Virus record (IMG/VR): IMGVR_UViG_3300029309_000028
Span: 1-61,398 of that record
Length of the DNA: 61,398 bases
Reading direction: 5' to 3' (one strand)
From: a virus
The notes beneath the pieces are model-generated. The model saw only the letters and a program-made list of their open reading frames with translations, had not been told where the DNA came from and did no database searches. Both the position numbers and the translations under genes were made by a program. Positions 9,712 to 45,069 of this stretch are shown here, one piece after another; within the stretch, counting starts at the first letter, position 1; the number at the start of each line of letters is the position of its first letter.

Positions 9712-9745
9712 TTAATATATAGTGTAATTATAAAAAATAAAAAAT

Positions 9746-10498
9746 ATGGCATTAGGTAAAAAGGTAAGTCCAGCAAAATTTTTAGGTGCAGTATCACTTG
9801 GTTTAGGTGTAGCGCAAGGCGCAACTCAAATTATAGGTGGTATAGCTGAAAGAAGAAGATTAAAGGATGAGATGCGAAGAACTAAAAAAGAGTTTAGAAG
9901 AAATAGAGATACATTACAAGGTATGCAGTTTGAAAATCCTTACGGTGACATGCAGACTAATTTTGAAAATCCTTACGAAGATTTAACAGTTAACCAACAA
10001 CAAGCTCAGTTTCAAGCAGAGCAAGCAGCTCAGTCAAGAGCTAATATACTAAACAGTCTTCAAAGCGCTGCTGGCCCAAGCGGTATAGCTGGTCTTGCTC
10101 AAAGTTTAGCTAATCAAGCAACTCAACAACAAGCTGCAGCTTCTGCTAGTATAGGTCAACAAGAAGCTAGAAACCAAGCATTAGCGGCAAGAGGTGCTGA
10201 ATCAGTGTCAAGAAGAGAACAGGCCGCTGAACAAACTGTTATGGCTGGTGAAGCACAAAGGCAAGCTCAAGAAAGACAAAGAGATTTACAAGTAATGCAA
10301 TTAAGAGCTGGTAAACAAGATGCTTTAGCAGGTTTAAGACAACAAAGGTCTGAAGCTATTGGTGATATAGTTGGTGGTATTGGTACAATAGCTGGTTCTG
10401 CTTCTAACGCTTTTGAGTTAGGTATTGGAACTGGAAATAAACCTCGTGTTACAGCAGATAATCCTTATGGATTTATTCCTGGTCAAGGAGGCATATAA
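9746..10498 (+). CDS. internal virion (ejection-type) protein, Ala/Gln-rich helical
   Basis: 250 residues. A short hydrophobic glycine-rich N-terminal stretch (about 10-30) is followed by a long Gln/Ala/Arg-rich helical region (about 75-200) and a second Gly-rich hydrophobic patch near 210-225. This composition is usual for podovirus internal virion proteins that form or line the DNA channel. It is followed by two larger candidate internal proteins. Confidence 0.5.
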   Translation: MALGKKVSPAKFLGAVSLGLGVAQGATQIIGGIAERRRLKDEMRRTKKEFRRNRDTLQGMQFENPYGDMQTNFENPYEDLTVNQQQAQFQAEQAAQSRANILNSLQSAAGPSGIAGLAQSLANQATQQQAAASASIGQQEARNQALAARGAESVSRREQAAEQTVMAGEAQRQAQERQRDLQVMQLRAGKQDALAGLRQQRSEAIGDIVGGIGTIAGSASNAFELGIGTGNKPRVTADNPYGFIPGQGGI

Positions 10499-10514: not shown

Positions 10515-11729
10515 ATGGCAATAGATTTTTTTGAAATAGGTAGAAGTGGTGCTAGTCGCACAAGAAAAATAGATTATTCTAAAGCGCTTGATCCACTTGC
10601 TAAAAAAATAGAAACAAGAGTAAAAGAGAGTAAAGCTAAAACAGAAGCTTTAATAAACTCTATGCCACAAGGTGTTGCTATTGATAAAGTACCAGAAGAA
10701 CTAAGAGGTCAAGTAACTGATTTTTTAGCTAAAAATAAAAAAGAGTACGTAGATGCTAGTAGAGTTATAGCTTCAGGTATAAGACCTACTGATCAAAGAT
10801 ATATAGATGCTATGTCTACTATTAACGGTGTAAATAATAAATTTCAAAACTTAAGTAATCAATTAGAAGATATAGCTTTAAAGAGACAAGCTGCTTTGGA
10901 CGGTAGAGATCACTCAAAAGGAGCTTTTGATTGGGAAATAAGTGATCATGAAGGTTTAGCAAATGGTAGTATGTATGCTAGTTTTTCATTACAAGATGAT
11001 GGTAGTTTTAACTACTTGTCAAACGATAGTAAAACTAAAAAGTGGAGTGATTATTCTAATACTTTTCAAACAAGCAGTGTTGGTCAAGAAGGTTTTGATG
11101 TTATTTTACAAAGAGCTAAACAAGATGGTAGATATGGTATAACTTACAACAAAAATACTTACAAAGGTTTATTTAAAAAATTAAGAGCAGATTTAAAAAC
11201 AGATGCTGGTAGAGACTTTTTATTTTCTGATGAAATATTTTTAGAAGAACAAACAGGTGAGAAGTTTGGTACACCAGAATACGAAAAAGCTGTAAGCGCT
11301 CTTCGTAATAAAGGTAACTTTGAAAATTTAATGAACGCTTACGAAAAACATGCTCTTAAAGAAATATTAAAAGTACATAAATCTGCTATTGACGCTTATG
11401 ATGATAGACAGGAAACGCGAAGTGGAAGTGGAAGTGGAAAAACTGAAAATAATCAAGCTTCAATTGAAGCTGCAAGAAGAGGTGATAAAATAATTAAAGT
11501 AGATAATTTTAACGTTGCTGTACAACAAAAAGATGGTTATACATATAAAATAGTTAAAAATAACGAAGCTTCTTTAAATTTAGATGATTATACTATTTCT
11601 TACAGTCAAGATGAATTAATCAAATTTTTTGGTGGTAAAATGGATTCTGATATGAGAAGATTTAAAAAATTAGAAGATACTTTAAATAAACAAGAAACTA
11701 AAGAAAAAGAGCTACCTGCAGGTGGTTAA
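10515..11729 (+). CDS. internal virion protein candidate
   Basis: 404 residues from the ATG at 10515 (MAIDFFEIGRSG). An upstream in-frame ATG at 10425 would overlap the previous gene by 74 bases and is less likely. The protein is highly charged and helical, with a Gly/Ser-rich linker (GSGSGSG) near residue 305. Its place between the Ala/Gln-rich protein and the giant polyvalent protein suggests a virion protein ejected with DNA. Confidence 0.5.
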   Translation: MAIDFFEIGRSGASRTRKIDYSKALDPLAKKIETRVKESKAKTEALINSMPQGVAIDKVPEELRGQVTDFLAKNKKEYVDASRVIASGIRPTDQRYIDAMSTINGVNNKFQNLSNQLEDIALKRQAALDGRDHSKGAFDWEISDHEGLANGSMYASFSLQDDGSFNYLSNDSKTKKWSDYSNTFQTSSVGQEGFDVILQRAKQDGRYGITYNKNTYKGLFKKLRADLKTDAGRDFLFSDEIFLEEQTGEKFGTPEYEKAVSALRNKGNFENLMNAYEKHALKEILKVHKSAIDAYDDRQETRSGSGSGKTENNQASIEAARRGDKIIKVDNFNVAVQQKDGYTYKIVKNNEASLNLDDYTISYSQDELIKFFGGKMDSDMRRFKKLEDTLNKQETKEKELPAGG

Positions 11730-11739
11730 TAAATATAAT

Positions 11740-14700
11740 ATGTTTGAATTACAAGGCGATACATATACTTTAAAGGAGCTTGAAGACTTTGCTTCTCAAC
11801 AAAATTTAGACTTTGATAGTTTCATGTCTGATATGAAAACTAAAGGTTTAGTAGATAAAAGAGAGAAAGAAGATACAAAACAAGCTTTACCTTTTGGCGC
11901 TAAAGTAGCTGTAACAACTGGAAAAGCTTTTGAAACTGGCGTTGATGTTGCTACTGGTTTATCTAAAATAGTAAAAGATTTAATAACTGATGAAGAAGAA
12001 AGAGAAGAAACAAAACAAGCTTTAAAAAACCAATTTGATAACGTTCCTATTAAATTACGTAATACTTTTTTTAATCAAATACCTGCTGCTGTTGTTGATT
12101 TAACAACAAGAGATCTTACAGGTATGCAAAAACCAGAAGTTAGAGAAAAAGCTAGTGAGTTTTTAAAAAATAAGTATAAAGAAATAGATGTTGTAAATAA
12201 ATATTTAATAAAAGATACTGGTGAAGGTATTGTTAAAGGTATAAAGCAAGGTGATGCTTCAGATTTTGTAAGCGGTTTAGTTGGCGCTAACTTACAAATG
12301 GTAGAAACAGTAGTACCAGCTATGTTAACTGGAGGCGCTAGTTTACCTTTTCAAGTGATAGCGCCTATGTATACTGATTATAACATAACTAAAGCTGAAA
12401 ATTTATATGGTAAAAATGATCCTGAAGCTTTAAATAAGTTAATTAGCTCTGGTGAAACAGAAGTTGCAACGCCTTTAGCTTTAGGTCTTATTGCTACTGG
12501 TTTTGAATACATAGGGTTTAAAGGTATAACTAAATACATGCTAGGTAATCAAGCCGCTAGTAAAATGGCTTCAAATTTATTTTTTACAAATAACAGAGAA
12601 GGTGTAACTGAATTATTACAAAATGGTGTAGAAAGTATAAGCACGGCTAAAGCTCAAGGAAAAAGTGATGAAGATGCTATGCAAGAATTTTTTAAAGGTA
12701 TATTTAGCGAAGAAGGTTTAGAGTCATATTTAAATGGTTTTGTTGGAAGCGTTGGTATAAGTACAGCTGGTAGAGCTGTAAATAGAGCTTTAAGAACTGA
12801 TAAAGCTAGCGTGAAAGAAATAAATGAACAAATAAGTAATTTAGCTGAATTAAATTTAGCTAAAAACTCTACTAGAGATGCAGAAGTTAAAGAAGCTTTA
12901 GAACAAGAAATAGAACAAAAAGAACAAGATTTTAAAAAATATATAACTGATAAAAGAAAAGTATCAGAGCTTTTAAACAATGAGCAAAAAATAAATTTAG
13001 TAAATTTTGTTAAACAAAAAGACAATATTAGATCAAAAGCTGAGTCTTTAAAAAATAAATTAGAAAATAATCAGATTACTACAAAAGATTTTGGTTATGC
13101 TATAAGAAGTTTAAATAATCAAAGCAATAGAATAACTGAACAGATTGAGCTTATTAATGAAACAGCAAAAAAACAAACAGCTGTAAAAGCTGCTGAAGAC
13201 GTAAGTCAAATTATAAAAGAAACTGGTTTAGAAGGTGAAGTTACAGAATTATCTTCTGAAGAAATATCTAACTTAGACATAGAACAAGCAAAAGAAGCAT
13301 CTAAACAATTTGGTTTTATAGCTCAAAGAAAAGACGGTAGTTTTAATATAATTTTAAACGAAGATAAACCATCTCTTGGCACAGCTGCTCACGAATTAAT
13401 GCATGCTATATTATATAAAACTATAGGTGGTAATCAAGAACTACAAGACTCTATAGGTAGCGCTTTAACAAGTTTTGTTAATGACAAAAAAGGTGGCGTA
13501 AGCCAAGCTTTTATAAACCGTATGAAACCTTACATTAATGATAAAAACTTTGGAGAAGAAGTTATTACTGTTATGTCAGAGTCTATGCTTGATGGTAGTT
13601 TAAACTTTAACGAAAATTTATTTACAAAACTACGAGACTCTTTTAGAAGATTTTATCAAAAAATTACAAACAAAGACGTAGAGTTTAATACAGGTAGAGA
13701 TGTTTATAATTTTATAAAAGATTATAATAAAAGTATTAAAGAAGGTAAATTAAGTCCTAGAATATTAAAAGCTGCTACTGAAGGTGTTAAAGGTAAATTA
13801 GTTAAAGGTAAAGTTAAACCTGAAGATACCGTACAAATGTCTAAAGAAGCTTCTGATAATGTTCAAAGATTATATGATACTAAAGAAGCTAATTTTGAAG
13901 CTAAAATTATAAATGAGTTTAAGCCAATAGTAAGTCGTATAGTTGAAAGACGTAGTCAAGCACCTAACTTTGATAGAGAGTTATTAACTAGTGAAATAGA
14001 AATAGGTGAAAGAGGTGTATTAGATTTAATTAGAGATTATAAACCAGATTCAGGTGTACCTTTAGCTGCTTATATAAATAAGTTTTTACCAGCAAGAGCC
14101 ATAGAAGCTTCTAGACGTGTTTTAGGTGAAGAATTTACAGAAGACGTAACAGAGGCAAGAGGTGTTGAAGCTAGAGAAGAAACCGTTGAAGTTGAAACAA
14201 AACCAAAACCTAAAAAAATAGTTTTAGCTGATAGATTAAATGTTAAAAGTAAAGTTGATAAAGCTATAAAAGAACAATTACCAAAGCTAGACGTTAAAGA
14301 ATTAACGTTTAAAAAATTAAAAAACTTAGTACCTGATATTACTGGCGAAATGTTTGGTATAAGCTCTAGAAAATTAAAAACTTTAGCAAACATAACTAAA
14401 AAAGAGCTACAAGCTGCGCAAATGTTTATTAATAAAAATGCTGATTTGTTAATAGCAATGTTACCAGAAGGCTCTACAGTAAGTGGTACATCTACAGGTG
14501 TACCTAACACTTTATTAAAAGCTTTTTACACAAAAACAGATAGAGCTAAAATGGCTAAAACAGGTAGTACCTCTGGTTTAGCGATTCAAGTAAAAAATAA
14601 AATAAATAAAAAAGAGTTTTTAGAAGTTTTTGGTATTATTGATGGTAAACCACAACGTGATGATAGAAACACATCTGCTAGAGTGTTAGCGTTAGCTAAT

Positions 14701-17700
14701 TTAACTGGTAAAATGATGACTAATCAAACTGTGAGAGAAAATTTAGAGTTATTAGGTAATAGTGAGCAAACTATAAAAAACATTAGAGAAGGCGCTTCTA
14801 GTGTTATGTTTAATAAAGAAGCTGTTTTAGATATAGACTTAAATTTACCTGAATTAAATTTAAATGATCCTAAAAATAGTTTTGAAAATATTGATATATT
14901 TGTAGATAAAATAGCTTTACTCGCTACTTATGGTAAGCTTGGTATAATTAGAGCTGTTGATTTACGGTCTACAATTACTAATAGCGCTGCAAAAGAGTAT
15001 GTAAGAACAAATACTATATTTGAAGATTTAGGTTTATTTACAATTGATGGTAAAATACAAGGTAAAGAAGTAGATATAAAGTTTCAAAGACCTGATCAAA
15101 AAACAGTTTTAGGTAAAAACGTAAAAGAGATAACTAAAAAACAAGCTAGAGATTATAATAAAAACGGAAAAGCTAATTTTAATGATATGGTAAATATGAT
15201 TAAAAAAGCTATAGAAGCAAATCCTGATGATAAAATACTTCAAGCTGCTATAAAAAAATACTTACAAGCCGCGACTTACGACACGTCACACCCTTTAAGA
15301 CAAGGTGCTGAGTATATTGGAGGCGATGTTACTGCTACTGGCGAGATAAGATACGAGCATGCTGTTCAAGCTGCTACAGTAAGAGATTTATTACTAGATG
15401 TTTTAATAAATAGGCCAAAAGAGTTTAATAAAACAATGAAGGCTATACAAAAAAACTATAAACTAATAGCTTTATCTAAAAAAAATGATGATGCTTTAAA
15501 CTCTTCTAGTTATATAAACGAAAAAGGTGAAATAGTGTTTTACAGTAACGGTATGGGTGTTGGTTGGGATATTTTTATTGATAATTGGTTTGATAGATAT
15601 TTTAACACAGATGTTAATGTTATAGATCCTAATAATCTTAGATTAATTAAAAACGGTAAAACTTTTGCTCAAGAGTATGGTGTTACTATGTCTGGTAAAA
15701 TACCTGCTTTAAACAGTAGCGTTGCAAATGTAAAAATAATTGATAAAGCTATAAATAAAGGTAGATTACTTAGTTTTTCAAAAACACCAAAAGGTATTAG
15801 TATATTAGACTTTGATGATACACTAGCAACTACAGAGTCTTTAGTAAAGTATATAGCTCCAGATGGTAATACAGGTACTTTAAATGCAGAGCAATATGCT
15901 AGTACTTATGAAGATTTATTAGATCAAGGTTTTACTTTTGATTTTTCAGATTTTAATAGAGTTGTAAAAGGTAAATTAGCACCTCTGTTTAATAAAGCTT
16001 TAAAACTACAAAGCAAGTTTGGTCCAGAAAATATGTTTGTGTTAACAGCTAGACCACCTGCAGCGCAAAAACCTATATTTGACTTTTTAAAAGCAAACGG
16101 TTTAAATATACCTTTAAAAAATATAACTGGCTTAGGTAATAGTACTAGTGAAGCAAAAGCCTTATGGATAGCTGATAAAGTTGGTGAAGGTTATAATGAT
16201 TTTTATTTTGCTGATGATGCTTTACAAAACGTGCAGGCTGTAGATAACATGTTAGAGCAATTTGATGTTAAACGTAAAGTGCAGCAAGCTAAGTTACAGT
16301 TTAGTAAAGATTTAGACGGTGAGTTTAACAGTATAATAGAAGATGTAAAAGGTATAAAAGCTGAAAAAAGATATTCACAAGCTAAAGCTAGAAAACGTGG
16401 TGAAGGTAAAGGTAGATTTAGATTTTTTGTACCACCATCACATGAGGATCTTGTAGGTTTGTTGTATAACTTTATAGGTAAAGGCGCAAAAGGTAACAAG
16501 CATAGAGACTTTTTTGAAAAAGCTATAGTAAAACCATTAAACAGAGCTTATAACGAATTAAATATAGCTAAACAGTCTATAGCAAACGATTATAAAGCTT
16601 TAATAAAAGCTTTTCCAGATATAAGAAAAAAATTAACAAAGAAAACTCCTGACGGTGATTATTATTATTCTGATGCTGTAAGAGTTTATTTGTGGAATAA
16701 ATCAGGTTTTGATATACCTGGTATGTCAAAAACAGATGTACAAGAGTTAGTTGATTTAGTAACTAGTGATGGTGAATTACAAGCTTTTGCAGATAACATA
16801 GGTGTAATATCAAAACAAGAACAAGGTTATGTTGAACCTAGCGAGGAGTGGCAAGCTGGTGATATAAGAACTGATTTAGCAGATGCTACAGGTAGAGTTG
16901 GTAGAAAAAAGTTTTTTGCTGAGTTTATAGAAAATGCAGATGTAATATTTAATAAAGAAAATTTAAATAAAATAGAAGCTGCTTATGGTATTGATTTTAG
17001 AGAAGCTTTAGAAGATGTTTTATATAGAACTAAAACAGGTACAAATAGAACTGTAGGTCAAAATAAAATTGTTAATAGATTTTTAGATTATTTAAACGGA
17101 TCTATAGGTGCTACAATGTTTTTTAACGCAAGATCAGCTGTATTACAGACTATATCTACAGTTAACTTTATAAACTTTGGTGATAATAATATATTTGCAG
17201 CATCAAGAGCTTTTGCTAATCAAAAACAATTTTGGTCTGACTTTTCAATGTTGTTTAACTCTGACATGTTAAAACAAAGAAGAGCTGGAGTTGCTTTTGA
17301 TGTTAACGCAAATGAAATAGCTAACGCTGTTAGTAAATCAAAACAACCAGTTAGAGCTGCTATAAGATATTTATTACAAATAGGTTTTTTACCTACGCAG
17401 TTAGCTGATAGTTTTGCAATATCACTCGGTGGTGCTAGCATGTACAGAAATAGAGTTAACACTTATTTAAAACAAGGTTTAGAACAAAAAGAAGCAGAAA
17501 CAAAAGCGTTTAATGACTTTCAAGAAATATCTGAAAGCACACAGCAGTCAGCTAGACCTGATAAAATATCACAACAACAAGCTTCACCGCTTGGTCGTAT
17601 GATATTAGCTTTTCAAAACACACCATCACAGTATGTTAGATTAATGAAAAAAGCTGGTTTAGATTTAATTAATAGAAGAAAAACACCACCTTACGCTAAT

Positions 17701-18375
17701 CAAGCTAAAAGCGATATGTCAAATATATCTAAAATAATATATTATGGCGCTATACAAAATATTATATTTTACGGTTTACAATCAGCAATGTTCGCAATGT
17801 TATTTGACGATGATGAAAAAGATGAAGAGTTTTTTGAAAAGAAAAGAGATAGAATACTTAACGGTAGTTTAGATACTATATTAAGAGGTATGGGTGTTGG
17901 TGGTGCTGTTATATCAACTATAAAAAATACAGCTATAAAATACGCTGAAAATCAAAAGAAAGACTGGGGTAAAGAAGATAATGTTGTTATGATGGAAATG
18001 TTACAATTATCACCACCTATAGGTATTAAAGCTAGAAAACTAAGTAGTGCACAAAAAACTATGGATTTTAATAAAAAAGTAATTGAAGAAATGGACACGT
18101 TTGATATTGATAATCCAGTTTACAGCGCTATAGGTAATTTAATTGAAGCAACTACAAACATACCACTTGCTAGATTACATCGTAAAACAATGAATTTACG
18201 TGAAGCTGCTAACGCTGAAAATGAGTGGTGGCAAAGATTATCTATGGCACTTGGTTGGAGCCGTTGGGATGTTGGTGTAGAAAACAAAGAAGTTGAAGCT
18301 GTTAAAAAAGAAATAAAACAAAGAAACAAAACAAGAGGAAAAGCTAAAAGAAAAGCAACAAGAACAACTAGATAA
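11740..18375 (+). CDS. giant polyvalent virion protein with zincin and HAD phosphatase-like domains
   Basis: 2211 residues from the ATG at 11740. An upstream GTG at 11722 is possible but overlaps the previous gene. About residue 550 there is a zinc metallopeptidase motif, HELMH, in AAHELMHAILY. About residues 1350-1510 form a HAD-like domain: LDFDDTLATT, then VLTARPPA, then YFADDA, as in polynucleotide phosphatase-type HADs. About residues 1995-2020 are hydrophobic, followed by an acidic DDDEKDEE stretch. This fits the large polyvalent proteins of phages, thought to be injected with the genome. Confidence 0.7.
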   Translation: MFELQGDTYTLKELEDFASQQNLDFDSFMSDMKTKGLVDKREKEDTKQALPFGAKVAVTTGKAFETGVDVATGLSKIVKDLITDEEEREETKQALKNQFDNVPIKLRNTFFNQIPAAVVDLTTRDLTGMQKPEVREKASEFLKNKYKEIDVVNKYLIKDTGEGIVKGIKQGDASDFVSGLVGANLQMVETVVPAMLTGGASLPFQVIAPMYTDYNITKAENLYGKNDPEALNKLISSGETEVATPLALGLIATGFEYIGFKGITKYMLGNQAASKMASNLFFTNNREGVTELLQNGVESISTAKAQGKSDEDAMQEFFKGIFSEEGLESYLNGFVGSVGISTAGRAVNRALRTDKASVKEINEQISNLAELNLAKNSTRDAEVKEALEQEIEQKEQDFKKYITDKRKVSELLNNEQKINLVNFVKQKDNIRSKAESLKNKLENNQITTKDFGYAIRSLNNQSNRITEQIELINETAKKQTAVKAAEDVSQIIKETGLEGEVTELSSEEISNLDIEQAKEASKQFGFIAQRKDGSFNIILNEDKPSLGTAAHELMHAILYKTIGGNQELQDSIGSALTSFVNDKKGGVSQAFINRMKPYINDKNFGEEVITVMSESMLDGSLNFNENLFTKLRDSFRRFYQKITNKDVEFNTGRDVYNFIKDYNKSIKEGKLSPRILKAATEGVKGKLVKGKVKPEDTVQMSKEASDNVQRLYDTKEANFEAKIINEFKPIVSRIVERRSQAPNFDRELLTSEIEIGERGVLDLIRDYKPDSGVPLAAYINKFLPARAIEASRRVLGEEFTEDVTEARGVEAREETVEVETKPKPKKIVLADRLNVKSKVDKAIKEQLPKLDVKELTFKKLKNLVPDITGEMFGISSRKLKTLANITKKELQAAQMFINKNADLLIAMLPEGSTVSGTSTGVPNTLLKAFYTKTDRAKMAKTGSTSGLAIQVKNKINKKEFLEVFGIIDGKPQRDDRNTSARVLALANLTGKMMTNQTVRENLELLGNSEQTIKNIREGASSVMFNKEAVLDIDLNLPELNLNDPKNSFENIDIFVDKIALLATYGKLGIIRAVDLRSTITNSAAKEYVRTNTIFEDLGLFTIDGKIQGKEVDIKFQRPDQKTVLGKNVKEITKKQARDYNKNGKANFNDMVNMIKKAIEANPDDKILQAAIKKYLQAATYDTSHPLRQGAEYIGGDVTATGEIRYEHAVQAATVRDLLLDVLINRPKEFNKTMKAIQKNYKLIALSKKNDDALNSSSYINEKGEIVFYSNGMGVGWDIFIDNWFDRYFNTDVNVIDPNNLRLIKNGKTFAQEYGVTMSGKIPALNSSVANVKIIDKAINKGRLLSFSKTPKGISILDFDDTLATTESLVKYIAPDGNTGTLNAEQYASTYEDLLDQGFTFDFSDFNRVVKGKLAPLFNKALKLQSKFGPENMFVLTARPPAAQKPIFDFLKANGLNIPLKNITGLGNSTSEAKALWIADKVGEGYNDFYFADDALQNVQAVDNMLEQFDVKRKVQQAKLQFSKDLDGEFNSIIEDVKGIKAEKRYSQAKARKRGEGKGRFRFFVPPSHEDLVGLLYNFIGKGAKGNKHRDFFEKAIVKPLNRAYNELNIAKQSIANDYKALIKAFPDIRKKLTKKTPDGDYYYSDAVRVYLWNKSGFDIPGMSKTDVQELVDLVTSDGELQAFADNIGVISKQEQGYVEPSEEWQAGDIRTDLADATGRVGRKKFFAEFIENADVIFNKENLNKIEAAYGIDFREALEDVLYRTKTGTNRTVGQNKIVNRFLDYLNGSIGATMFFNARSAVLQTISTVNFINFGDNNIFAASRAFANQKQFWSDFSMLFNSDMLKQRRAGVAFDVNANEIANAVSKSKQPVRAAIRYLLQIGFLPTQLADSFAISLGGASMYRNRVNTYLKQGLEQKEAETKAFNDFQEISESTQQSARPDKISQQQASPLGRMILAFQNTPSQYVRLMKKAGLDLINRRKTPPYANQAKSDMSNISKIIYYGAIQNIIFYGLQSAMFAMLFDDDEKDEEFFEKKRDRILNGSLDTILRGMGVGGAVISTIKNTAIKYAENQKKDWGKEDNVVMMEMLQLSPPIGIKARKLSSAQKTMDFNKKVIEEMDTFDIDNPVYSAIGNLIEATTNIPLARLHRKTMNLREAANAENEWWQRLSMALGWSRWDVGVENKEVEAVKKEIKQRNKTRGKAKRKATRTTR

Positions 18376-36885: not shown

Positions 36886-37617
36886 TTATAATGTTTTGCT
36901 TATGAAATACTGTTTAGGATCAAAGTCCTTGGTCTTGTAAAACAAGTCATAAGCTTCACTTGCTCTACGCACCTTATCTTCACCGCGTTCATAAAACTCA
37001 GGTGAACAGTCAAACACACCAATTTGATGTGTTGTTTTATCTATTACAACAAACACCATCTCATAACCAAACATTTTACTGTATATATAAGCTTGTGAAT
37101 CGTAATTGTATCTATTTGCTGACCATCTGAAACCTTCTATATCTGCGGTTGTTTTTAAGTCGATAACTAGTTTCTCATTGTGATTAACAATATCAGCTTT
37201 ACCTTTCCACGTATTATCAAACAATTGTATTATCCCAGGTTGTTCGTATTTGTTTTGTGTATCAACTATAAGATCTTTACATATATCGTTTGACATTATC
37301 TTGTCACGCATAAAAACTATATCATCAACTTCTTTTTGTAGCAAGCATAGCTCACCGCCAGACATATCTTTGTATACTTTGGTGTTTCTGGTTGCAGAAG
37401 GTATAACCTTAAACTTTTCGAGTTTATCTGGTTCAAGTATACACGTGTGGAAATAACCACCAACAAGAAATGCTGGCGAGGCTTTACTTGGCTCGTGAAG
37501 AGCTAACGGATTTTTGAGCAACGTTTTTATATCTGAGTTAGATAAGTACTGCTGGCCAAATTTACCGTAATAATCTTCGTCGTTACAAAGTCTTTGTAAG
37601 ATTTGTTCTTTGTTCAT
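36886..37617 (-). CDS. PD-(D/E)XK exonuclease (RecE/YqaJ-like)
   Basis: 243 residues. The nuclease core is seen in GKADIVNHNEKLVIDLKTTA (Asp, then DxK), followed by the Tyr-Gln motif YDSQAYIYS that such exonucleases share. FLVGGYFHTCILEPDKL is the usual early His-containing segment. It would make 3' single-strand overhangs. It overlaps the ERF annealase gene just upstream, forming a two-component recombination pair. Confidence 0.8.
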   Translation of the reverse strand: MNKEQILQRLCNDEDYYGKFGQQYLSNSDIKTLLKNPLALHEPSKASPAFLVGGYFHTCILEPDKLEKFKVIPSATRNTKVYKDMSGGELCLLQKEVDDIVFMRDKIMSNDICKDLIVDTQNKYEQPGIIQLFDNTWKGKADIVNHNEKLVIDLKTTADIEGFRWSANRYNYDSQAYIYSKMFGYEMVFVVIDKTTHQIGVFDCSPEFYERGEDKVRRASEAYDLFYKTKDFDPKQYFISKTL

Positions 37618-38203: not shown

Positions 38204-38959
38204 TTACAGAAAATCAATGACTTGCGAAGAGTCTACATTGTCTATAAGCTTTTGTATAGCTTGCTTTTTTAGTTGTGAAACACGTACGTAAGAGCTACTA
38301 CCGTTAATACCTATTTTGTTAGCTATTTCAGTCGCAGAGTGCTTAACACAGTCAAGGCCATAGCTCATACGTAATACATCATATTCTTTATTATCAAGAT
38401 GTAACTTAAGTATACTTAACAAATAACTATTTAACATAGCGTTATTGTACTTGTTAGAATCATCTGGTATTTGATATACATAGCTACTTTCACTTGCACC
38501 TACATCGTCTATACTAGCAAACACAGAGTTAAAAAATAACTCAACAGCTTTTTTACCATCGCCTTTACGTATTTCATTTAGTTTATGCTCAGGTATACGC
38601 ATGTTACCTCTGTTAATATCAATACCTCTACGTATTGCACCTTTTATACGCTTAGATAAAAACGACTTAATTGTTTTTTCTTGATCTTCAGATTCCATAA
38701 TAGTGTCCCAGTGTATTTTATCTACAGCTCTTATTAAGCCTGCAGAACCTTCTTGTATTAAATCGTTAATACTCATAACACCGCTAGCTTGTTGTGATGT
38801 TGCAAACTTACGCGCTAAGTTTTCTACAAGTGGCATGAACAATATTATTAGCTCATCTCTAGTATAATCTCTATAATCAAATTTTTGTGGTAATCTTTTA
38901 TAAGCTTGTTTTAAATCTTGCTTATATCTAATGTAGTTTTGTACATTATAACTTTTCAT
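38204..38959 (-). CDS. phage sigma-70-family factor
   Basis: 251 residues. Region 2 is recognisable: FMPLVENLARKFA, then SINDLIQEGSAGLIRAVDKI (as in primary-like sigma factors), and SFLSKRIKGAIRRGI. Region 4 holds EYDVLRMSYGLDC...SATEIANKIGINGSSSYVRV as an HTH. It could redirect host RNA polymerase to phage promoters such as the TTACAAA-TACGA-GGATAATA set. It overlaps the upstream HTH gene by 14 bases. Confidence 0.8.
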   Translation of the reverse strand: MKSYNVQNYIRYKQDLKQAYKRLPQKFDYRDYTRDELIILFMPLVENLARKFATSQQASGVMSINDLIQEGSAGLIRAVDKIHWDTIMESEDQEKTIKSFLSKRIKGAIRRGIDINRGNMRIPEHKLNEIRKGDGKKAVELFFNSVFASIDDVGASESSYVYQIPDDSNKYNNAMLNSYLLSILKLHLDNKEYDVLRMSYGLDCVKHSATEIANKIGINGSSSYVRVSQLKKQAIQKLIDNVDSSQVIDFL

Positions 38960-39572
38960 TTTCTTTATTTAATAGTTCTTTTTCTCTTTTTAACTCATCT
39001 TCCATATTCCTGTGTATAGTTCTTTTTGAGCAGTCTAACAAATCTGCTATTTTACTTATAGTTATTTTTTTACCCATATCATGTAAATCTAACATACACT
39101 CGTATATATCATCAGGATGTATACGTTTAGATCTACCTATTAATGCACCTACTATTTTTAGTTTTTCTTCTTTCGTTAGACCTGTAAATGGTTTAAATAT
39201 AACTTTACGTAGTTTGTTTTTTGGTGGTGCATCAAGATCTAGCATGCTAACTTCGTACACTATTTTTCGTAGCAGTTGAGCGTGTATAGCAAATGAAACG
39301 AAGCCGTTAGGTTTATGTGTTATAACTTCTGCTAGTTTCATAAAGTCATCTTGATCAAGCTGTGGGTTTAAATACCATAATACCAACAAGTGCCACTTCA
39401 AAGATTTATAAGTAGTTATCTTTGCTGATGACCTAAACAACTCATAACACTCGTTAGTACCGTTTTCATAAAACATGTACTTATCTGTTTCTTGTGTTGG
39501 TTTGTCTGTGAGCGGCAGTCGTCTATATACGATGCGGTTGGTATTAAGGTATTTAAGGTTTCTTTGTGACAT
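38946..39572 (-). CDS. HTH DNA-binding protein (possible regulator or initiator)
   Basis: 208 residues. The C-terminal region KKITISKIADLLDCSKRTIH is a good helix-turn-helix. The central helical region (SLKWHLLVLWYLNPQLDQDD) is unrecognised. Its start codon lies inside a 44-base palindrome that has a relative in the divergent control region, which suggests self-repression. It could instead be a replication initiator binding those palindromes. Confidence 0.6.
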   Translation of the reverse strand: MSQRNLKYLNTNRIVYRRLPLTDKPTQETDKYMFYENGTNECYELFRSSAKITTYKSLKWHLLVLWYLNPQLDQDDFMKLAEVITHKPNGFVSFAIHAQLLRKIVYEVSMLDLDAPPKNKLRKVIFKPFTGLTKEEKLKIVGALIGRSKRIHPDDIYECMLDLHDMGKKITISKIADLLDCSKRTIHRNMEDELKREKELLNKENEKL

Positions 39573-40763: not shown

Positions 40764-41041
40764 TTGTATTTTTTTAATATTTTGTTAACAACTTTCATAC
40801 GTCTTTTGACAATAGCACATTTTTCGTACTCTTCATCTTCTTGTAGTATATTCATTAATGTCATAAGCTTTGCAGCTTCACCTAAAGCTTCAACTTCTTC
40901 AGATAAGTTTAATTGGCTATAGTCACTGTCAGCAGCTTGTGCTGTAGACTCAACGTGGTTAAACCAGTCTTCCATAGTTTTAACTTTAAGCATACGGCTA
41001 ACAATTTTAGTCGCTAACATGTTTAAATCTTTTTCGTTCAT
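40760..41041 (-). CDS. small helical protein
   Basis: 93 residues from the ATG at 41041 (MNEKDLNMLATKIVSRML). An upstream in-frame ATG at 41065 lies inside the promoter motif at 41053-41085, so the later start is preferred. The protein is helical and charged, with EEVEALGEAAKLMTLMNILQ. Function unknown. Confidence 0.55.
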   Translation of the reverse strand: MNEKDLNMLATKIVSRMLKVKTMEDWFNHVESTAQAADSDYSQLNLSEEVEALGEAAKLMTLMNILQEDEEYEKCAIVKRRMKVVNKILKKYK

Positions 41042-41052
41042 TTTATTTATAT

Positions 41053-41085
41053 TATTATCCGTCATCGTTCGTATTATCTTTGTAT
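41053..41085 (-). promoter_or_regulatory. 33-bp early promoter-like motif, copy 1
   Basis: On the minus strand: ATACAAA-N5-TACGA-N8-GGATAATA, differing from the consensus TTACAAA by one base. It ends 11 bases before the ATG at 41041 and overlaps the 3' end of the next gene upstream. Confidence 0.75.
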
Positions 41086-41417
41086 TTATTAATTAGTTGT
41101 TCTGGTTTACCTACAAATATACATTTTAAATCTTCAGCACAACCATAACCTTCAAATATACTTATCCAAGTTTCTTTGAGTGGATGTTGCCATACATAAT
41201 AACAATATTCTAAATCACAATGTCTTGTAGATAAAAAATCTATTTCCCAGTTAGTTATTTTTGCACTATCTAATATTGATTTAGCTATTTCTATACCTCT
41301 ATGCTCAGGATAACCATCCCAATGTGCGTAAAATTGTGCGTCAAAACTATCCGGATGCTCACTAAACGATACTCCGTCTTCACGTTTAGCAAATCTTATT
41401 ATACTTCTTGTTGCCAT
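41055..41417 (-). CDS. conserved hypothetical (ATRS...HWDGYP family)
   Basis: 120 residues. It begins MATRSIIRFAKREDGVSFSE and contains YAHWDGYPEHRGIEIA, a pattern known from many phage and bacterial hypothetical proteins. No catalytic residues are assigned. The 3' end contains promoter motif copy 1 for the next gene. Confidence 0.65.
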   Translation of the reverse strand: MATRSIIRFAKREDGVSFSEHPDSFDAQFYAHWDGYPEHRGIEIAKSILDSAKITNWEIDFLSTRHCDLEYCYYVWQHPLKETWISIFEGYGCAEDLKCIFVGKPEQLINKYKDNTNDDG

Positions 41418-41418
41418 A

Positions 41419-41709
41419 TTATTCTTGTATTGGTGTTACGTCTTTTACATCATAGTAATGAGCTTGTAACGAAGTTATTATATGTCTACCAGTTGCAGTA
41501 TGAAAACCATAGCTATGTGTATGTAGCGGTGGTATTGCATCGTTAAAGCATAATAGCTTTAGCATATCTAGTGGCTTATCATAATTTAGTTCATCAGATA
41601 TATCATTGCAAGCTGCGGCTAGTGCTTTATGACAATGCCTGATTGGTTCATCTGAGCGTTGCTTTAAATATTTAAGTACAAACTCTGGTGTAAGGTATTT
41701 TTTATTCAT
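41419..41709 (-). CDS. small hypothetical early protein
   Basis: 96 residues with several His and Cys residues (IRHCHKALAAACND, PPLHTHSYGFHTATGRHI) that might bind metal. It is preceded at 11 bases by promoter motif copy 2. It ends one base before the next gene starts. Function unknown. Confidence 0.55.
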   Translation of the reverse strand: MNKKYLTPEFVLKYLKQRSDEPIRHCHKALAAACNDISDELNYDKPLDMLKLLCFNDAIPPLHTHSYGFHTATGRHIITSLQAHYYDVKDVTPIQE

Positions 41710-41720
41710 AATTTTTATTT

Positions 41721-41753
41721 TATTATCCGTTAGTTATCGTATTTAATTTGTAA
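41721..41753 (-). promoter_or_regulatory. 33-bp early promoter-like motif, copy 2
   Basis: Minus strand TTACAAA-N5-TACGA-N8-GGATAATA, perfect at all fixed positions, 11 bases before the ATG at 41709. It follows the T run of the hairpin at 41752-41832. Confidence 0.8.
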
Positions 41754-41832
41754 AAAAGAGACAGGCAAGCGAGTAATATCGCCTTTATCTAATGAAAGAC
41801 CTAGCATACACTCCTCGCGCCTTGCCTCTTTG
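41752..41832 (-). terminator. long stem-loop with T run (terminator or small structured RNA)
   Basis: On the minus strand the arms AAGAGGCAAG...CGAG and CTCG...CTTGCCT-GT-CTCTT pair around a 40-base loop and end in a run of six T. It lies 14 bases after the 41846-42031 gene and just before promoter copy 2. The loop is longer than a normal terminator, so a stable small RNA is possible. Confidence 0.55.
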
Positions 41833-41845
41833 AAAACAATGCTAA

Positions 41846-42031
41846 CTAAGCATCTTGATAGCTACCATACCTTTCGTATAGAGCTTTGTAATTTGACATT
41901 ATTGCTATTATTTTAGCTCTGTTTAATCCAGAGTAGTCTGATACTACTGATACATTAAACATATTAGTTACGCCTGATTGTCTTACGTCTTCGTAAGCAT
42001 TAAAATCATCTTGAGTTATTTCTATTGTCAT
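41846..42031 (-). CDS. conserved small phage protein
   Basis: 61 residues. The pattern MTIEITQDDFNAYEDVRQSG, then VTNMFNVSVVSDYSGLNRAK, is typical of a short phage protein family with unknown function (YEDVR.SGVTNMF). Helical. It starts 32 bases after the small upstream gene, in a spacer that contains TATAACTA, part of the recurring ATGTRTAACTA block. Confidence 0.65.
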   Translation of the reverse strand: MTIEITQDDFNAYEDVRQSGVTNMFNVSVVSDYSGLNRAKIIAIMSNYKALYERYGSYQDA

Positions 42032-42062
42032 ATTTATTTAATTTAATTAGTTATACATTGAT

Positions 42063-42197
42063 TTACTTGTACCAAACACCGTAAACTTTAACACCTCTAA
42101 CATCTTTTATAAGTACTCGTTTGATTACTTCTTTTTCAGTTAACTGGCTTTTGTCCATGTATTTTGGATTTTTGCTATTTAGTTTTCTTTTTTTCAT
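42063..42197 (-). CDS. small basic hypothetical protein
   Basis: 44 residues (MKKRKLNSKNPKYMDKSQLT, then EKEVIKRVLI...). It has a Lys-rich N-terminus and a beta-rich end (VRGVKVYGVWYK). It fills the space between two other early genes in the same strand and spacing. Function unknown. Confidence 0.5.
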   Translation of the reverse strand: MKKRKLNSKNPKYMDKSQLTEKEVIKRVLIKDVRGVKVYGVWYK

Positions 42198-42220
42198 ATC
42201 ATTTACTTTTATAAAAGCAG

Positions 42221-42271
42221 TATAAGTGCCGTTCAGTACGAGCCTAGGAGATACTTACTAGTGCACTTATA
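42221..42271 (-). ncRNA. hairpin with 9-bp stem and long loop (possible small RNA)
   Basis: TATAAGTGC (42221-42229) and GCACTTATA (42263-42271) pair across a 33-base loop. The stem starts at the base after the stop of the 42272-42481 gene. There is only a weak T-rich tail (TGCTTTTAT on the minus strand), so it is a poor terminator. It may protect the mRNA 3' end or be a small RNA. Confidence 0.4.
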
Positions 42272-42481
42272 TTACCTTAACATTGTACCATAACCTTTGC
42301 GGCGAGTTAACTTAGCGATACGTGCTGCGTCACTTGCCGACATAATCTGGATAGAGTTACCAGTTTTATGATAAGTGATTGGCGCACAGCCATATTGCTC
42401 GACAGTAGAACAGTTAACGCAAGTTTTGTAGCCAAGATTAACTCTGCCTGCAGGTATTATATTATTACATTTACATTTCAT
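42272..42481 (-). CDS. small zinc-ribbon-like protein
   Basis: 69 residues. Four cysteines in a CKC...CVNC pattern (MKCKCNNIIPAGRVNLGYKT, then CVNC) suggest a zinc ribbon, followed by a basic helix (ASDAARIAKLTRRKGYG). It may bind nucleic acid. Promoter motif copy 3 ends 16 bases before its ATG. Confidence 0.55.
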   Translation of the reverse strand: MKCKCNNIIPAGRVNLGYKTCVNCSTVEQYGCAPITYHKTGNSIQIMSASDAARIAKLTRRKGYGTMLR

Positions 42482-42497
42482 TGTTGTTATTTGTATA

Positions 42498-42530
42498 TAT
42501 TATCCAATAGCAATCGTATTTAGTTTGTAA
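42498..42530 (-). promoter_or_regulatory. 33-bp early promoter-like motif, copy 3
   Basis: Minus strand TTACAAA-N5-TACGA-N8-GGATAATA, perfect at all fixed positions. It lies between the stop of the 42531-42716 gene and the start of the zinc-ribbon gene. Confidence 0.8.
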
Positions 42531-42716
42531 TTATAAATAGTTTATGCTATTGTCTTCATGACACATCCACTCACAGCTATTTAAGTTGTGACCTTTGGCT
42601 ACTAAGTAGCCTTGCACGTTACCGTCATCTGGAGTCCAACCATCTGCACTTATATCGTACATATATACTTGACCTTTTTCAAAGTCTAATACTGTTAAGT
42701 AATTCATTTTTTCCAT
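42531..42716 (-). CDS. small hypothetical protein
   Basis: 61 residues (or 58 from the ATG at 42707), acidic, with LTVLDFEKGQVYMYDI and a CEWMCHEDN segment near the end. It overlaps the 3' end of the small gene just upstream. Not recognised. Confidence 0.5.
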   Translation of the reverse strand: MEKMNYLTVLDFEKGQVYMYDISADGWTPDDGNVQGYLVAKGHNLNSCEWMCHEDNSINYL

Positions 42717-42847
42717 ATTGTTTTATGTTTAAATTTTCTGTTATACTTCTTTTTATTAACAAACACAGAGCTGCCTGGTGGTCTTACACCTTGTTCGAGA
42801 TCTACTCGCCGTTTGACAGCTCGTTTGTGCTTGTTATTTAGTTTCAT
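42704..42847 (-). CDS. small basic hypothetical protein
   Basis: 47 residues (MKLNNKHKRAVKRRVDLEQG, then VRPPGSSVFV...). Its stop overlaps the start of the next gene (ATGGAAAAAATGA) and its ATG overlaps the end of the upstream gene by 4 bases. Basic at both ends; possibly DNA- or RNA-binding. Confidence 0.5.
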   Translation of the reverse strand: MKLNNKHKRAVKRRVDLEQGVRPPGSSVFVNKKKYNRKFKHKTIWKK

Positions 42848-43302
42848 ATTACTTTATATTTATGCCCATCTATTGTTACTGTTACTTCATTTGGCATTTC
42901 AGGTGCTATCTCGCCCATCATCTTTTCTTGCATGTCATACTTCCACTTCGGTATAAATCTACCACTTGATAACATGTTAGCTTGATTAATGTAATAGTTT
43001 TTGAGACAAAAGGCTATTAAATATTCTAATCTATCTGATTCGTTTGGTATTAGTATACGCTTTATACACATAAAATCTTTATAACCTGACGGTACTTTTT
43101 TAGTTTTATTTAGTTGCCAACTCGGCGAATAACCATTTGCTTTAGTACGTCTTACGTAACCACTAACAAAACTTGCTACATATATTGGTTTACCATGCTG
43201 GTCTTTTATTGGTAGCTTAAATTCACGCGTACCGTTTTTACTTTGTTGTTTAGTTGTAACTTCTTGAATACCAAGTAGTTGCATTGTTTGTTTTATGTTC
43301 AT
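42844..43302 (-). CDS. hypothetical early protein
   Basis: 152 residues from the ATG at 43302 (MNIKQTMQLLGIQEVTTKQQ). The longer open frame runs back through the tRNA-Ala gene and is not coding there. Mid-protein patterns (YVRRTKANGYSPSWQLNK, then LIPNESDRLEYLIAFCLKNY) are unrecognised. It may be regulatory given the strand and position. Confidence 0.55.
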   Translation of the reverse strand: MNIKQTMQLLGIQEVTTKQQSKNGTREFKLPIKDQHGKPIYVASFVSGYVRRTKANGYSPSWQLNKTKKVPSGYKDFMCIKRILIPNESDRLEYLIAFCLKNYYINQANMLSSGRFIPKWKYDMQEKMMGEIAPEMPNEVTVTIDGHKYKVI

Positions 43303-43318
43303 ATTTACTTTTATTTTG

Positions 43319-43392
43319 TGGAGAATATCGGAGTCGAACCGATGACCTCTTGCGTGCAAAGCAAGCGCTCTAGCCAACTGAGCTAATCCCCC
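43319..43392 (-). tRNA. tRNA-Ala (anticodon TGC)
   Basis: A 74-base cloverleaf on the minus strand. The acceptor GGGGGAT pairs with ATTCTCC. The D-arm is AGCTCAGTTGG...GAGC. The anticodon stem CTTGC/GCAAG closes loop TTTGCAC with anticodon TGC. The T-arm is ATCGG-TTCGACT-CCGAT. The discriminator is A, and CCA is not encoded. Confidence 0.93.
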
Positions 43393-43400
43393 ATTGTAGT

Positions 43401-43562
43401 TTAATCTAATCCATCTCTGTTGTTATTAGGCCAAGCAGCAGGTGGATTATTTGCTTTACGCTGCTTTTCCATTTGTATCATAGCATATATTGCTTGAGCT
43501 TCAGAGCTACTTTGTTTAGTTACTTTGTATTTTTCTTTATTTTGCTTTTTATTCTGCGACAT
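43401..43562 (-). CDS. small basic hypothetical protein
   Basis: 53 residues from the ATG at 43562 (MSQNKKQNKEKYKVTKQSSS). An upstream extension in the same frame overlaps the preceding gene and is not favoured. It ends 8 bases before the tRNA. The start overlaps the upstream gene's stop region. Helical and basic; function unknown. Confidence 0.5.
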   Translation of the reverse strand: MSQNKKQNKEKYKVTKQSSSEAQAIYAMIQMEKQRKANNPPAAWPNNNRDGLD

Positions 43563-43722
43563 AAGTGAAACCTTTATAGTTAAACCATTGAGTAACATAC
43601 GAGAAACCATCTTCATCGACTTGACCAAACCTAGTGTCAGCAAGTTGACAAATAGTGTATGGTTTATATAGTATGTTGTTTAGTATTATTTTATTGTTTT
43701 TTAGAAATTTAATTTTATTCAT
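43549..43722 (-). CDS. small hypothetical protein
   Basis: 57 residues (MNKIKFLKNNKIILNNILYK, then PYTICQLADTRFGQV...). Promoter motif copy 4 ends 15 bases upstream of its ATG, which supports it as real. Beta-rich C-terminus (YVTQWFNYKGFTYVAE). Overlaps the next gene by 14 bases. Confidence 0.55.
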   Translation of the reverse strand: MNKIKFLKNNKIILNNILYKPYTICQLADTRFGQVDEDGFSYVTQWFNYKGFTYVAE

Positions 43723-43737
43723 ATTGTTATTTATTAT

Positions 43738-43770
43738 TATTATCCAACTTTATTCGTAATTAATTTGTAA
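43738..43770 (-). promoter_or_regulatory. 33-bp early promoter-like motif, copy 4
   Basis: Minus strand TTACAAA-N5-TACGA-N8-GGATAATA, perfect. The upstream half overlaps the stop codon of the lipoprotein gene at 43760-43948. Confidence 0.8.
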
Positions 43771-43948
43771 TTAGTTCACTATGTTTGTATTCTATACTTT
43801 CACCACAGTCCCATAAAGCGTGCGCAGTTTCTTTATCACAACACTTTATTGGTTCTTGCTTTTTAGTTTTACAAGAAGTTATTAACATTAGTGAAATAAT
43901 TAATATTATTATTATTTCTGCACTATATTTTTCTTTAATTTTACTCAT
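43760..43948 (-). CDS. small phage lipoprotein
   Basis: 62 residues. A hydrophobic signal (AEIIIILIISLMLITSC) ends in a lipobox cysteine at about 26, then a short hydrophilic tail with a CC pair (KTKKQEPIKCCDKETAHALW). Early expression and envelope location fit a superinfection-exclusion lipoprotein, but that is inference. Confidence 0.6.
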   Translation of the reverse strand: MSKIKEKYSAEIIIILIISLMLITSCKTKKQEPIKCCDKETAHALWDCGESIEYKHSELITN

Positions 43949-43964
43949 AGTTATTATATTTTAG

Positions 43965-44081
43965 TAGTAGTGGTGAGAATCGAACTCACATATCACATTG
44001 ATATTACCATTGACTACTTTTACTTGTTCACATTTTTTATAAGTCGCTAAACAAAGCGTAACTACGACTTGACCCACCACT
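43965..44081 (-). ncRNA. tRNA-like element with long insert (tRNA- or tmRNA-like)
   Basis: On the minus strand a perfect T-arm (GTGAG-TTCGATT-CTCAC) is followed by CACTACT and a discriminator A. AGTGGTG at 44081-44075 can pair with CACTACT (one G-U). Instead of a normal body, 86 bases lie between. A canonical D-arm and anticodon arm are not clear, so it could be a degenerate tRNA, an intron-containing one or a tRNA mimic. It lies 16 bases upstream of the lipoprotein ATG. Confidence 0.5.
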
Positions 44082-44107
44082 CGCTAATAGGCACTTCACG
44101 AGTGGTT
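44077..44107 (-). other. hairpin overlapping the tRNA-like 5' end
   Basis: CCACTCG and CGAGTGG (7-bp stem, about 17-base loop) form a hairpin that uses some of the same bases as the 5' acceptor strand of the tRNA-like element. The two folds exclude each other. Confidence 0.5.
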
Positions 44108-44124
44108 ATTTAGAGCCTGAGTTA

Positions 44125-44352
44125 TTATACTAGCTCGATATTTCTAACTGACATTGGTATGTTATTAGTTGCAGTGTAACTTTTATACTTTAACCAACAT
44201 GGCATTACACTTAGTTTATCTTTCATAACTTCCCACACTTTGTCGTGATTATAAGTTACTGTGTCACCTTTTTTGTTTACAAATTCGATTACTTGATTTT
44301 TACCGATTAGAGACTTTCTTACAACAAATCTCTTAGATTTTAATATATTCAT
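44125..44352 (-). CDS. first gene of the leftward operon, hypothetical
   Basis: 75 residues, basic (MNILKSKRFVVRKSLIGKNQ, then VIEFVNKKGD...). It is the first gene after the divergent control region, with promoter motif copy 5 38 bases upstream, so it should be made first after entry. Beta-rich, perhaps nucleic-acid binding; family not recognised. Confidence 0.55.
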   Translation of the reverse strand: MNILKSKRFVVRKSLIGKNQVIEFVNKKGDTVTYNHDKVWEVMKDKLSVMPCWLKYKSYTATNNIPMSVRNIELV

Positions 44353-44389
44353 AGTTGTTTATTTTTATTTAGTTATACATTGTTTATTA

Positions 44390-44422
44390 TATTATCCACA
44401 TTACTTCGTATTACATTTGTAA
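44390..44422 (-). promoter_or_regulatory. 33-bp early promoter-like motif, copy 5
   Basis: Minus strand TTACAAA-N5-TACGA-N8-GGATAATA, perfect at all fixed positions. It points to the first leftward gene, with the ATG 38 bases away. Confidence 0.8.
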
Positions 44423-44514
44423 AAGTATATTAATTGTTTAGTTATAAATTTACTTGTGTATGTATTGCCCTCAACTTCATTGTGTGTAATAATTATTTTT
44501 TTTATTTACATATA

Positions 44515-44547
44515 TATTATCCACAATAAGTCGTAATTGTTTTGTAA
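44515..44547 (-). promoter_or_regulatory. 33-bp early promoter-like motif, copy 6
   Basis: Minus strand TTACAAA-N5-TACGA-N8-GGATAATA, perfect. No clear gene lies between it and copy 5, which is about 125 bases downstream. It may be an alternative start or drive a short leader. Confidence 0.75.
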
Positions 44548-44751: not shown

Positions 44752-44790
44752 AAGCCTATTAATAAAGATATAGTAACAGGCAAGTGTCAC
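44745..44790. promoter_or_regulatory. palindromic operator-like element in control region
   Basis: GTGACA-TAA-GCCT ... AGGC-AAG-TGTCAC, an interrupted palindrome with 6- and 4-base arms and a 20-base centre. Read on the minus strand it begins GTGACACTTGCCTGTTACT, close to GTGACATTAGCCTGTTACT at 39566. It may bind the HTH protein. Confidence 0.6.
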
Positions 44791-44829
44791 ACTTTTAAAT
44801 AATCCATTTACTATGTAATAATATACATT

Positions 44830-45069
44830 ATGAGAAGTTCACCAATATTACTAAAACAAAAACTTAGTCCAAAAGCTGCAGCAGCTAAAAAAAAGCGTGA
44901 TATAGCAATGGCTAAGACAACGGTGAGAAAAGCTAAAAAAGCACAAAACCAAAGAATAGGCCAAAAACCAGACTCAGACCTACACCATACTAAATCTGGT
45001 AGAGTACGAAGGGTATCGGTTAAAAGCAACAGAGGTAATTTTGGAAGAGGAACTAAACTAGAAAAGTAA
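44830..45069 (+). CDS. small basic protein, first rightward gene
   Basis: 79 residues, Lys/Ala/Arg-rich N-terminus (KLSPKAAAAKKKRDIAMAKT) and a conserved C-terminus (DSDLHHTKSGRVRRVSVKSN, then RGNFGRGTKLEK) that I recognise from marine phage proteins. Probably nucleic-acid binding or capsid-associated. No function known. Confidence 0.55.
   Translation: MRSSPILLKQKLSPKAAAAKKKRDIAMAKTTVRKAKKAQNQRIGQKPDSDLHHTKSGRVRRVSVKSNRGNFGRGTKLEK

Follow-up and report, generated by a model that had tools for sequence, protein, structure and literature searches.

A three-block candidate promoter and its putative phage sigma factor in a group of uncultured phages

Motif copies and neighbouring genes in the window

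The window analysed in this study is the whole 61,398-nucleotide stretch of the IMG/VR virus record IMGVR_UViG_3300029309_000028, which carries genes for terminase, portal, GroEL and GroES proteins, for replication and recombination, and for a crAssvirus muzzle-domain protein of 1921 amino acids (aa). Our subject is a 33-base motif of the form TTACAAA-N5-TACGA-N8-GGATAATA that recurs on the minus strand ahead of small genes. An original prediction, made from the letters of this stretch, listed six copies and described them as promoter-like. All six were recovered, five of them (at positions 41721, 42498, 43738, 44390 and 44515) as exact matches and the remaining one (41053) with a single mismatch, wherein ATACAAA replaces TTACAAA. 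The number expected by chance is 0.03, with a maximum of 1, as judged from 100 dinucleotide shuffles in which up to 3 mismatches were permitted. No plus-strand copies are present in the entire record, and a reversed control pattern likewise yielded none.

The list of six was incomplete in one respect, as a weaker seventh match is located at 37228. The peptide YEQPxII..FDNxWKG is encoded by this match and also by its counterpart in another genome. Because this in-frame peptide is conserved, we judge the match to be probably a coding coincidence that is constrained as protein.

Four copies had been predicted to stop 11 to 16 bases ahead of an ATG, and the measured distances agree (Table 1), such that predicted leaders in the window are short, at about 6-11 nucleotides (nt) for four copies. 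The ATG that follows the copy at 41053 opens a gene run encoding a ligase, a helix-turn-helix (HTH) protein and a sigma factor. No open reading frame (ORF) of at least 30 aa is found within 150 nt of the copy at 44515. A tRNA-Ala(TGC) gene is located at 43318-43392 (minus strand) within the early operon, between motif copies, and a T-arm-like stretch (GTGAGTTCGATTCTCAC) at 43970-44090 lies near this gene but was not called as a tRNA.

Table 1. Candidate promoter elements of the window and the genes proposed to act with them
Feature	Position	Strand	Remarks
Motif copy 1, exact	44515..44547	-	Predicted +1 is G at 44509; not directly followed by a long ORF
Motif copy 2, exact	44390..44422	-	Predicted +1 is A at 44384; 75-aa ORF 44125-44352, ATG 37 nt past motif
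Motif copy 3, exact	43738..43770	-	Predicted +1 is A at 43732; 57-aa ORF, ATG 15 nt past motif
Motif copy 4, exact	42498..42530	-	45.8 bits, the window's top score; predicted +1 is A at 42492; 69-aa ORF 42272-42481, ATG 16 nt past motif
Motif copy 5, exact	41721..41753	-	Predicted +1 is A at 41715; 96-aa ORF 41419-41709, ATG 11 nt past motif
Motif copy 6, one mismatch	41053..41085	-	Predicted +1 is A at 41047; overlaps the end of the preceding ORF; ATG at 41041, 11 nt past motif
Weaker seventh match, two mismatches	37228..37260	-	In frame within exonuclease gene 36886-37617
Sigma-70-family factor, 251 aa, with regions 2, 3.0-like and 4	38204..38959	-	Candidate reader of the motif
Orphan protein, 208 aa, C-terminal HTH	38946..39572	-	Directly upstream of the sigma gene and overlapping its start; candidate partner or activator
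Promoter-like element TGTAATAATA, with -35-like CTTTTAAA upstream	44814..44823	+	Divergent; ATG 44830 opens the late strand's first gene
Second-class element TGTAATTATA	9723..9732	+	Upstream of 250-aa ORF 9746-10498; also at corresponding positions in other genomes

Anatomy of the motif and its spread among related phages

Exact copies of the motif were encountered in at least 117 stretches when IMG/VR was scanned. A weight matrix was then built from the motif, and sites scoring at least 14 bits were accepted, which gave 459 sites across 68 contigs of related phages, 1.77 Mb in total, whereas a Markov-1 simulated sequence as long as these contigs gave none. All but six of these sites (453) share the strand of the sigma gene. 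Based on the matrix from 11 near-complete genomes, the full consensus is wTACAAAcTAAATACGA-N8-kGATAATA-taaat-R, and is thus longer than the version originally proposed. These 11 genomes hold 99 sites, of which 71 are clear of ORFs of at least 60 aa, 24 overlap the end of an ORF and 4 fall inside one. The expectation that a matrix scan would place hits among early genes was borne out, given that 98 of the 99 are confined to the early strand and the early block and that only the 4 just mentioned lie wholly within ORFs.

A purine is found six positions past GATAATA in 457 of the 459 sites, and we take this nucleotide as the predicted +1. Relative to it, TTACAAA spans -38 to -32, TACGA spans -26 to -22 and GATAATA spans -12 to -6. 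The nucleotides A-11 and T-7 are a general feature of sigma-70-type promoters. Both are present in the -10 box of the motif, which, as judged from the sequence logo and the +1 statistics, also has an upstream box and a purine start 6-7 bases downstream. Moreover, the A of an ATG coincides exactly with the predicted +1 at 78 sites (17%), whereas at the remaining sites the start codon mostly follows some 10-25 nt later. The proposal that transcripts begin a few bases after GGATAATA agrees with both observations. We infer from these sequence characteristics that the motif is a promoter in all but experiment, from which transcription would start. Because the ATG begins exactly at the predicted +1, mRNAs from the 78 sites would be leaderless. 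Such starts are frequent in the motif class, whereas the transcripts of Flavobacterium johnsoniae are mostly leadered, with leaders longer than 10 nt in 87% of those predicted (PMC6847099).

The motif closely tracks the sigma gene. Among records picked for the sigma gene, 28 of 33 carry the motif at no more than 2 mismatches (reversed control, 0); the matrix adds three others (G005, G011 and G032), and the last two (G014 and G018) end just upstream of the sigma gene. Conversely, the sigma gene is present in 40 of the 50 motif-picked records that are at least 40 kb long. The ten that lack it were considered as possible counterexamples, and the six of these that were read were rejected, since in each the contig ends within the early operon. 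Contigs picked independently by terminase are mostly fragments; in the two longer than 60 kb, motif and sigma gene occur together. Thus, one was never seen without the other in any contig of sufficient completeness, and, as in the systems of phages phiEco32 and 7-11, motif copies precede several genes and are tied to a sigma gene in relatives. In three contigs (G040, G056 and G077) the motif is present and the sigma gene is interrupted by stops or frame shifts, which might reflect sequencing errors or real decay.

Annotated relatives, on the basis of terminase, include Elemovirus (Flavobacterium), Callevirus phi38:1 and Baltivirus phi18:3 (Cellulophaga), Gundelvirus (Tenacibaculum), a Maribacter phage and MW202828. 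Exact motif matches occur in only six stretches among the 84,980 bacterial and archaeal genomes of GTDB. A flavobacterial host is likely for the window phage because these matches lie mainly in Flavobacteriaceae bins and one is joined to a host tRNA-Asp gene. In the latter case (L348 / L342; Flavobacteriaceae UBA5079, DIAL01000151.1, at a contig end), the motif directly follows the tRNA-Asp gene and is itself followed by a gene for a 5'(3')-deoxyribonucleotidase of phage type, the ATG of which coincides exactly with +1. This arrangement, which could reflect either a prophage located at tRNA-Asp or sequences joined during assembly, gives a hint to the host.

Other bacterial matches belong to a repeated unit of 200-270 base pairs (bp) that is 96% identical between copies and is represented twice in one Flavobacteriaceae metagenome-assembled genome (L350 and L354; CALSPF010000002.1) and once in another genome (L349; CAJIYH010000001.1). 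The motif match within this unit is 25/25, except that one copy has one mismatch. Downstream is a decaying gene for a small secreted protein (MKTKITIATLLFGF...), and the host contigs are devoid of the phage sigma gene. The unit might be a captured phage promoter, a phage-responsive host cassette or a remnant.

Candidate readers of the motif

The gene at 38204-38959 encodes a sigma-70-family factor, as is evident from homology to regions 2 and 4 and from its fold. It matches phrog_351 of PHROG (1.7e-19), and its Sigma70_r2 and Sigma70_r4 matches are slightly below the Pfam gathering cut-offs. A profile of 66 sequences, when compared with solved structures, retrieves SigA/RpoD (5e-12) and, over nearly the full length, the sigma28/FliA protein of 1rp3 (2e-10). 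Likewise, the top matches in a fold search with the sigma model (predicted local distance difference test score, pLDDT, 77) are all sigma factors. A tblastn search of INPHARED phages gave no match for this protein. The adjacent HTH protein was modelled with a pLDDT of 88, and the fold search returned no structural match for it beyond the short HTH. Sigma gene and HTH gene stand side by side in 68 of 68 contigs, and the sigma-less relatives lack the HTH protein except for one marginal match.

As the original prediction stated, the motif is unlike the promoter of the Bacteroidota primary sigma factor (TTTG/TAnnTTTG). The -7 element of the host is defined by T-12, A-11, T-8, T-7, T-6 and G-5 (PMC6847099), and the motif shares only A-11 and T-7 with it. 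The other four positions differ, the TTTG is missing and TAnnTTTG does not occupy -12 to -5. Host-type boxes are, however, seen in the five sigma-less relatives, where the motif matrix gives a top score of 6.8 bits (some of these controls being scanned over partial stretches) versus 16-49 bits for accepted sites. TAnnTTTG occurs upstream of genes in these five relatives 16, 10, 11, 5 and 8 times versus 3.7, 1.5, 3.0, 1.8 and 3.9 expected, respectively. The excess is found in Elemovirus, MW202828 and Gundel_1 and is weaker in phi38:1 and phi18:3, and many of the boxes are positioned 15-25 nt before an ATG. In the 11 sigma-bearing genomes the total is 37 versus 24.6 expected, and the window's matches reside within coding sequence. 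The arrangement TTTG-N17-23-TAnnTTTG shows no excess in the window (4 versus 5.4 expected), and host -33/-7 promoters were rejected as candidates there, with counts that are at chance or matches that are inside genes. Nor were E. coli-type sigma70 promoters or intrinsic terminators in excess over shuffles. Given that the sigma-less relatives lack the motif and keep TAnnTTTG, and that the sigma-bearing genomes are near expectation, gain of the sigma/HTH pair accompanies gain of the motif and loss of host-type promoters. One of the sigma-less relatives, MW202828.1, carries on its early strand a palindrome (GTGTCGTTAACGACAC) that recurs in some seven upstream regions and resembles the operator of a regulator.

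A distinct promoter-like class, of the form cTTTtAAA-N14/15-TGTRATWATA-N5-ATG, is located where the late strand begins. In the window (44780-44830, plus strand) and its relatives, this divergent start reads GTCACaCTTTTAAA-N13-ACTATGTRATWATA-N5-ATG, with the ATG at the predicted +1. A repeated AGTAGTAAATAA on the late strand was also considered as a promoter and rejected, as it occurs at one place per genome in 5 of the 11 genomes.

We consider it probable, though by no means assured, that a holoenzyme containing the phage sigma factor reads the motif as a private promoter. This reading is favoured because the -10 box differs from that of the host at four of six invariant positions, because the motif is nearly absent from host genomes, and because motif and sigma gene were not seen apart. 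The suggestion that the phage sigma factor might be the reader is thus supported as a possibility by this co-occurrence and by strand and gene placement. Several observations nonetheless weigh against it. Half of the 68 contigs were selected because they contain the motif, and motif, sigma factor and HTH protein may be merely co-inherited in one clade. Sigma factor and HTH protein co-occur perfectly, and therefore co-occurrence cannot separate their roles. A search for covariation between residues of either protein and motif position 26 (59 contigs) gave a best adjusted R2 of about 0.3, with signals scattered in unlikely places and no residue standing out. The motif nearest to the sigma gene is about 2 kb upstream, at 41053, and the late class could be the real target of the sigma factor. 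Finally, if the sigma factor is needed and no host-type promoter precedes its gene, the first sigma molecules are left unexplained.

This start-up problem vanishes if the motif is instead an early promoter at which the host polymerase uses a host sigma factor, either unaided or together with an injected phage helper, and if the phage sigma factor then activates the late TGTRATWATA class. Such a scheme follows the usual phage order, as in 7-11, where host sigma70 acts early and the phage sigma factor acts late (PMC8948821). A separate late class is present at the divergent late-strand start, and the motif precedes tiny genes where the operon begins, a placement common among immediate-early promoters. 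However, the -10 box retains only two positions of the host element, the sigma-less relatives do show host-type boxes, and the near absence of the motif from bacterial and archaeal genomes and its constant company with the phage sigma gene also argue against this scheme, which we regard as unlikely. Still less probable, in our assessment, is that specificity resides in the HTH protein, which would bind TTACAAA/TACGA and recruit a host- or phage-sigma holoenzyme that needs only GATAATA, in the manner of T4 MotA or PhoB. The strict pairing of this protein with the sigma factor fits that role, as do boxes that stop 9 bp short of the -10 hexamer, a distance that would suit an activator replacing the -35 contact, and an 11-bp spacing of TACAA and TACGA, equal to one helical turn. 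Although 11 bp is the best shift, 29% of column permutations match the resemblance between these two blocks, and we do not claim a direct repeat; in addition, the structural match of the protein is limited to the short HTH, and TTACAAA is placed where sigma region 4 normally binds.

We also entertain, as a similarly doubtful variant, that the clade has dropped host-type promoters and that the whole genome is run through its own sigma factor, delivered or pre-made (for example, in the virion, where it would replace the crAss-like virion RNA polymerase), to give truly leaderless mRNAs. A far more remote notion is that the motif is a DNA or RNA element other than a promoter, such as replication iterons, a packaging signal or an mRNA leader element. 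Its repetition and fixed spacing would be in keeping with this, but the copies are hundreds of bases apart, in a single orientation and each just ahead of a gene. Furthermore, the last block is a -10 box of the A-11/T-7 type followed by a fixed purine, an ATG can sit at the predicted +1 such that no RNA element would be left, and Rfam matches in the region amount to one tRNA.

Under the preferred reading by the phage sigma factor, the motif would serve as core promoter for a class of transcription that is clade-specific and dedicated to the phage, with TTACAAA as the -35-type box, TACGA as a spacer box and GATAATA as the -10 box, and with transcription starting on the purine six bases past GATAATA. 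Host RNA polymerase core carrying the phage sigma factor, probably aided by the neighbouring HTH protein, would act on a series of small early or middle genes, on replication and recombination genes, and on the sigma and partner genes themselves. Because the latter are among the targets, the circuit would be self-reinforcing, and its first sigma molecules might come from leaky host transcription or from delivery by the virion.

Relation to known systems and implications

Phage sigma factors with private promoters are already known, namely gp36 of phiEco32 and gp47 of 7-11 (PMC8948821). The present system resembles these in that a podovirus encodes a sigma-70-family protein, that copies of a phage-only promoter are dispersed, and that 6-9 bases separate the start from the element. 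In phiEco32 a small activator, gp79, is also involved, to which the HTH protein might be a parallel. In contrast, the phiEco32 and 7-11 promoters are middle or late and are single (tAATGTAtA) or bipartite (GTAAtg-16-aCTA), whereas the motif has three blocks and is found on the early strand of flavobacterial phages.

Promoters of the sigma28/FliA group, for which the E. coli consensus is TAAAGTTT-n11-GCCGATAA (PMC2859248), share a GATAA core with the -10 box of the motif. However, the motif lacks the GCC before GATAA, has a different -35 box and includes the extra TACGA, and thus does not conform to this consensus. The phage protein is, like the sigma28/FliA group 3 factors, about 250 aa long and without region 1.1, and it aligns nearly end-to-end with 1rp3, although SigA/RpoD scores better.

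The crAss-like phages and N4 are podoviruses of related architecture in which the phage likewise takes over early transcription. Their virion RNA polymerase has no counterpart that we could find here, where a sigma factor is present instead: scans of the giant proteins for DxDxD and T7-type motifs and family searches were all negative, although a very divergent enzyme is possible. One such protein of 2217 aa (11722-18375, plus strand) adjoins the structural genes and gave no family match, and proteins in like positions in relatives reach about 3,800 aa. By motif it is not an RNA polymerase, and it is probably an ejected or tail-tape protein.

The motif is not described in the literature we searched, and the three-block early-strand promoter, the sigma/HTH pair and their spread in a large group of flavobacterial phages appear to be undescribed. 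These findings provide a sharply defined phage-only promoter and a likely sigma factor for widespread uncultured marine flavobacterial phages. An orthogonal pair of this type would be useful in a phylum for which few expression tools exist. With start codons at the predicted +1 of 17% of sites, leaderless translation in Bacteroidota becomes testable, and the contrast with sigma-less relatives, which retain promoters of the host type, means that the acquisition of a private transcription system can likewise be tested directly.

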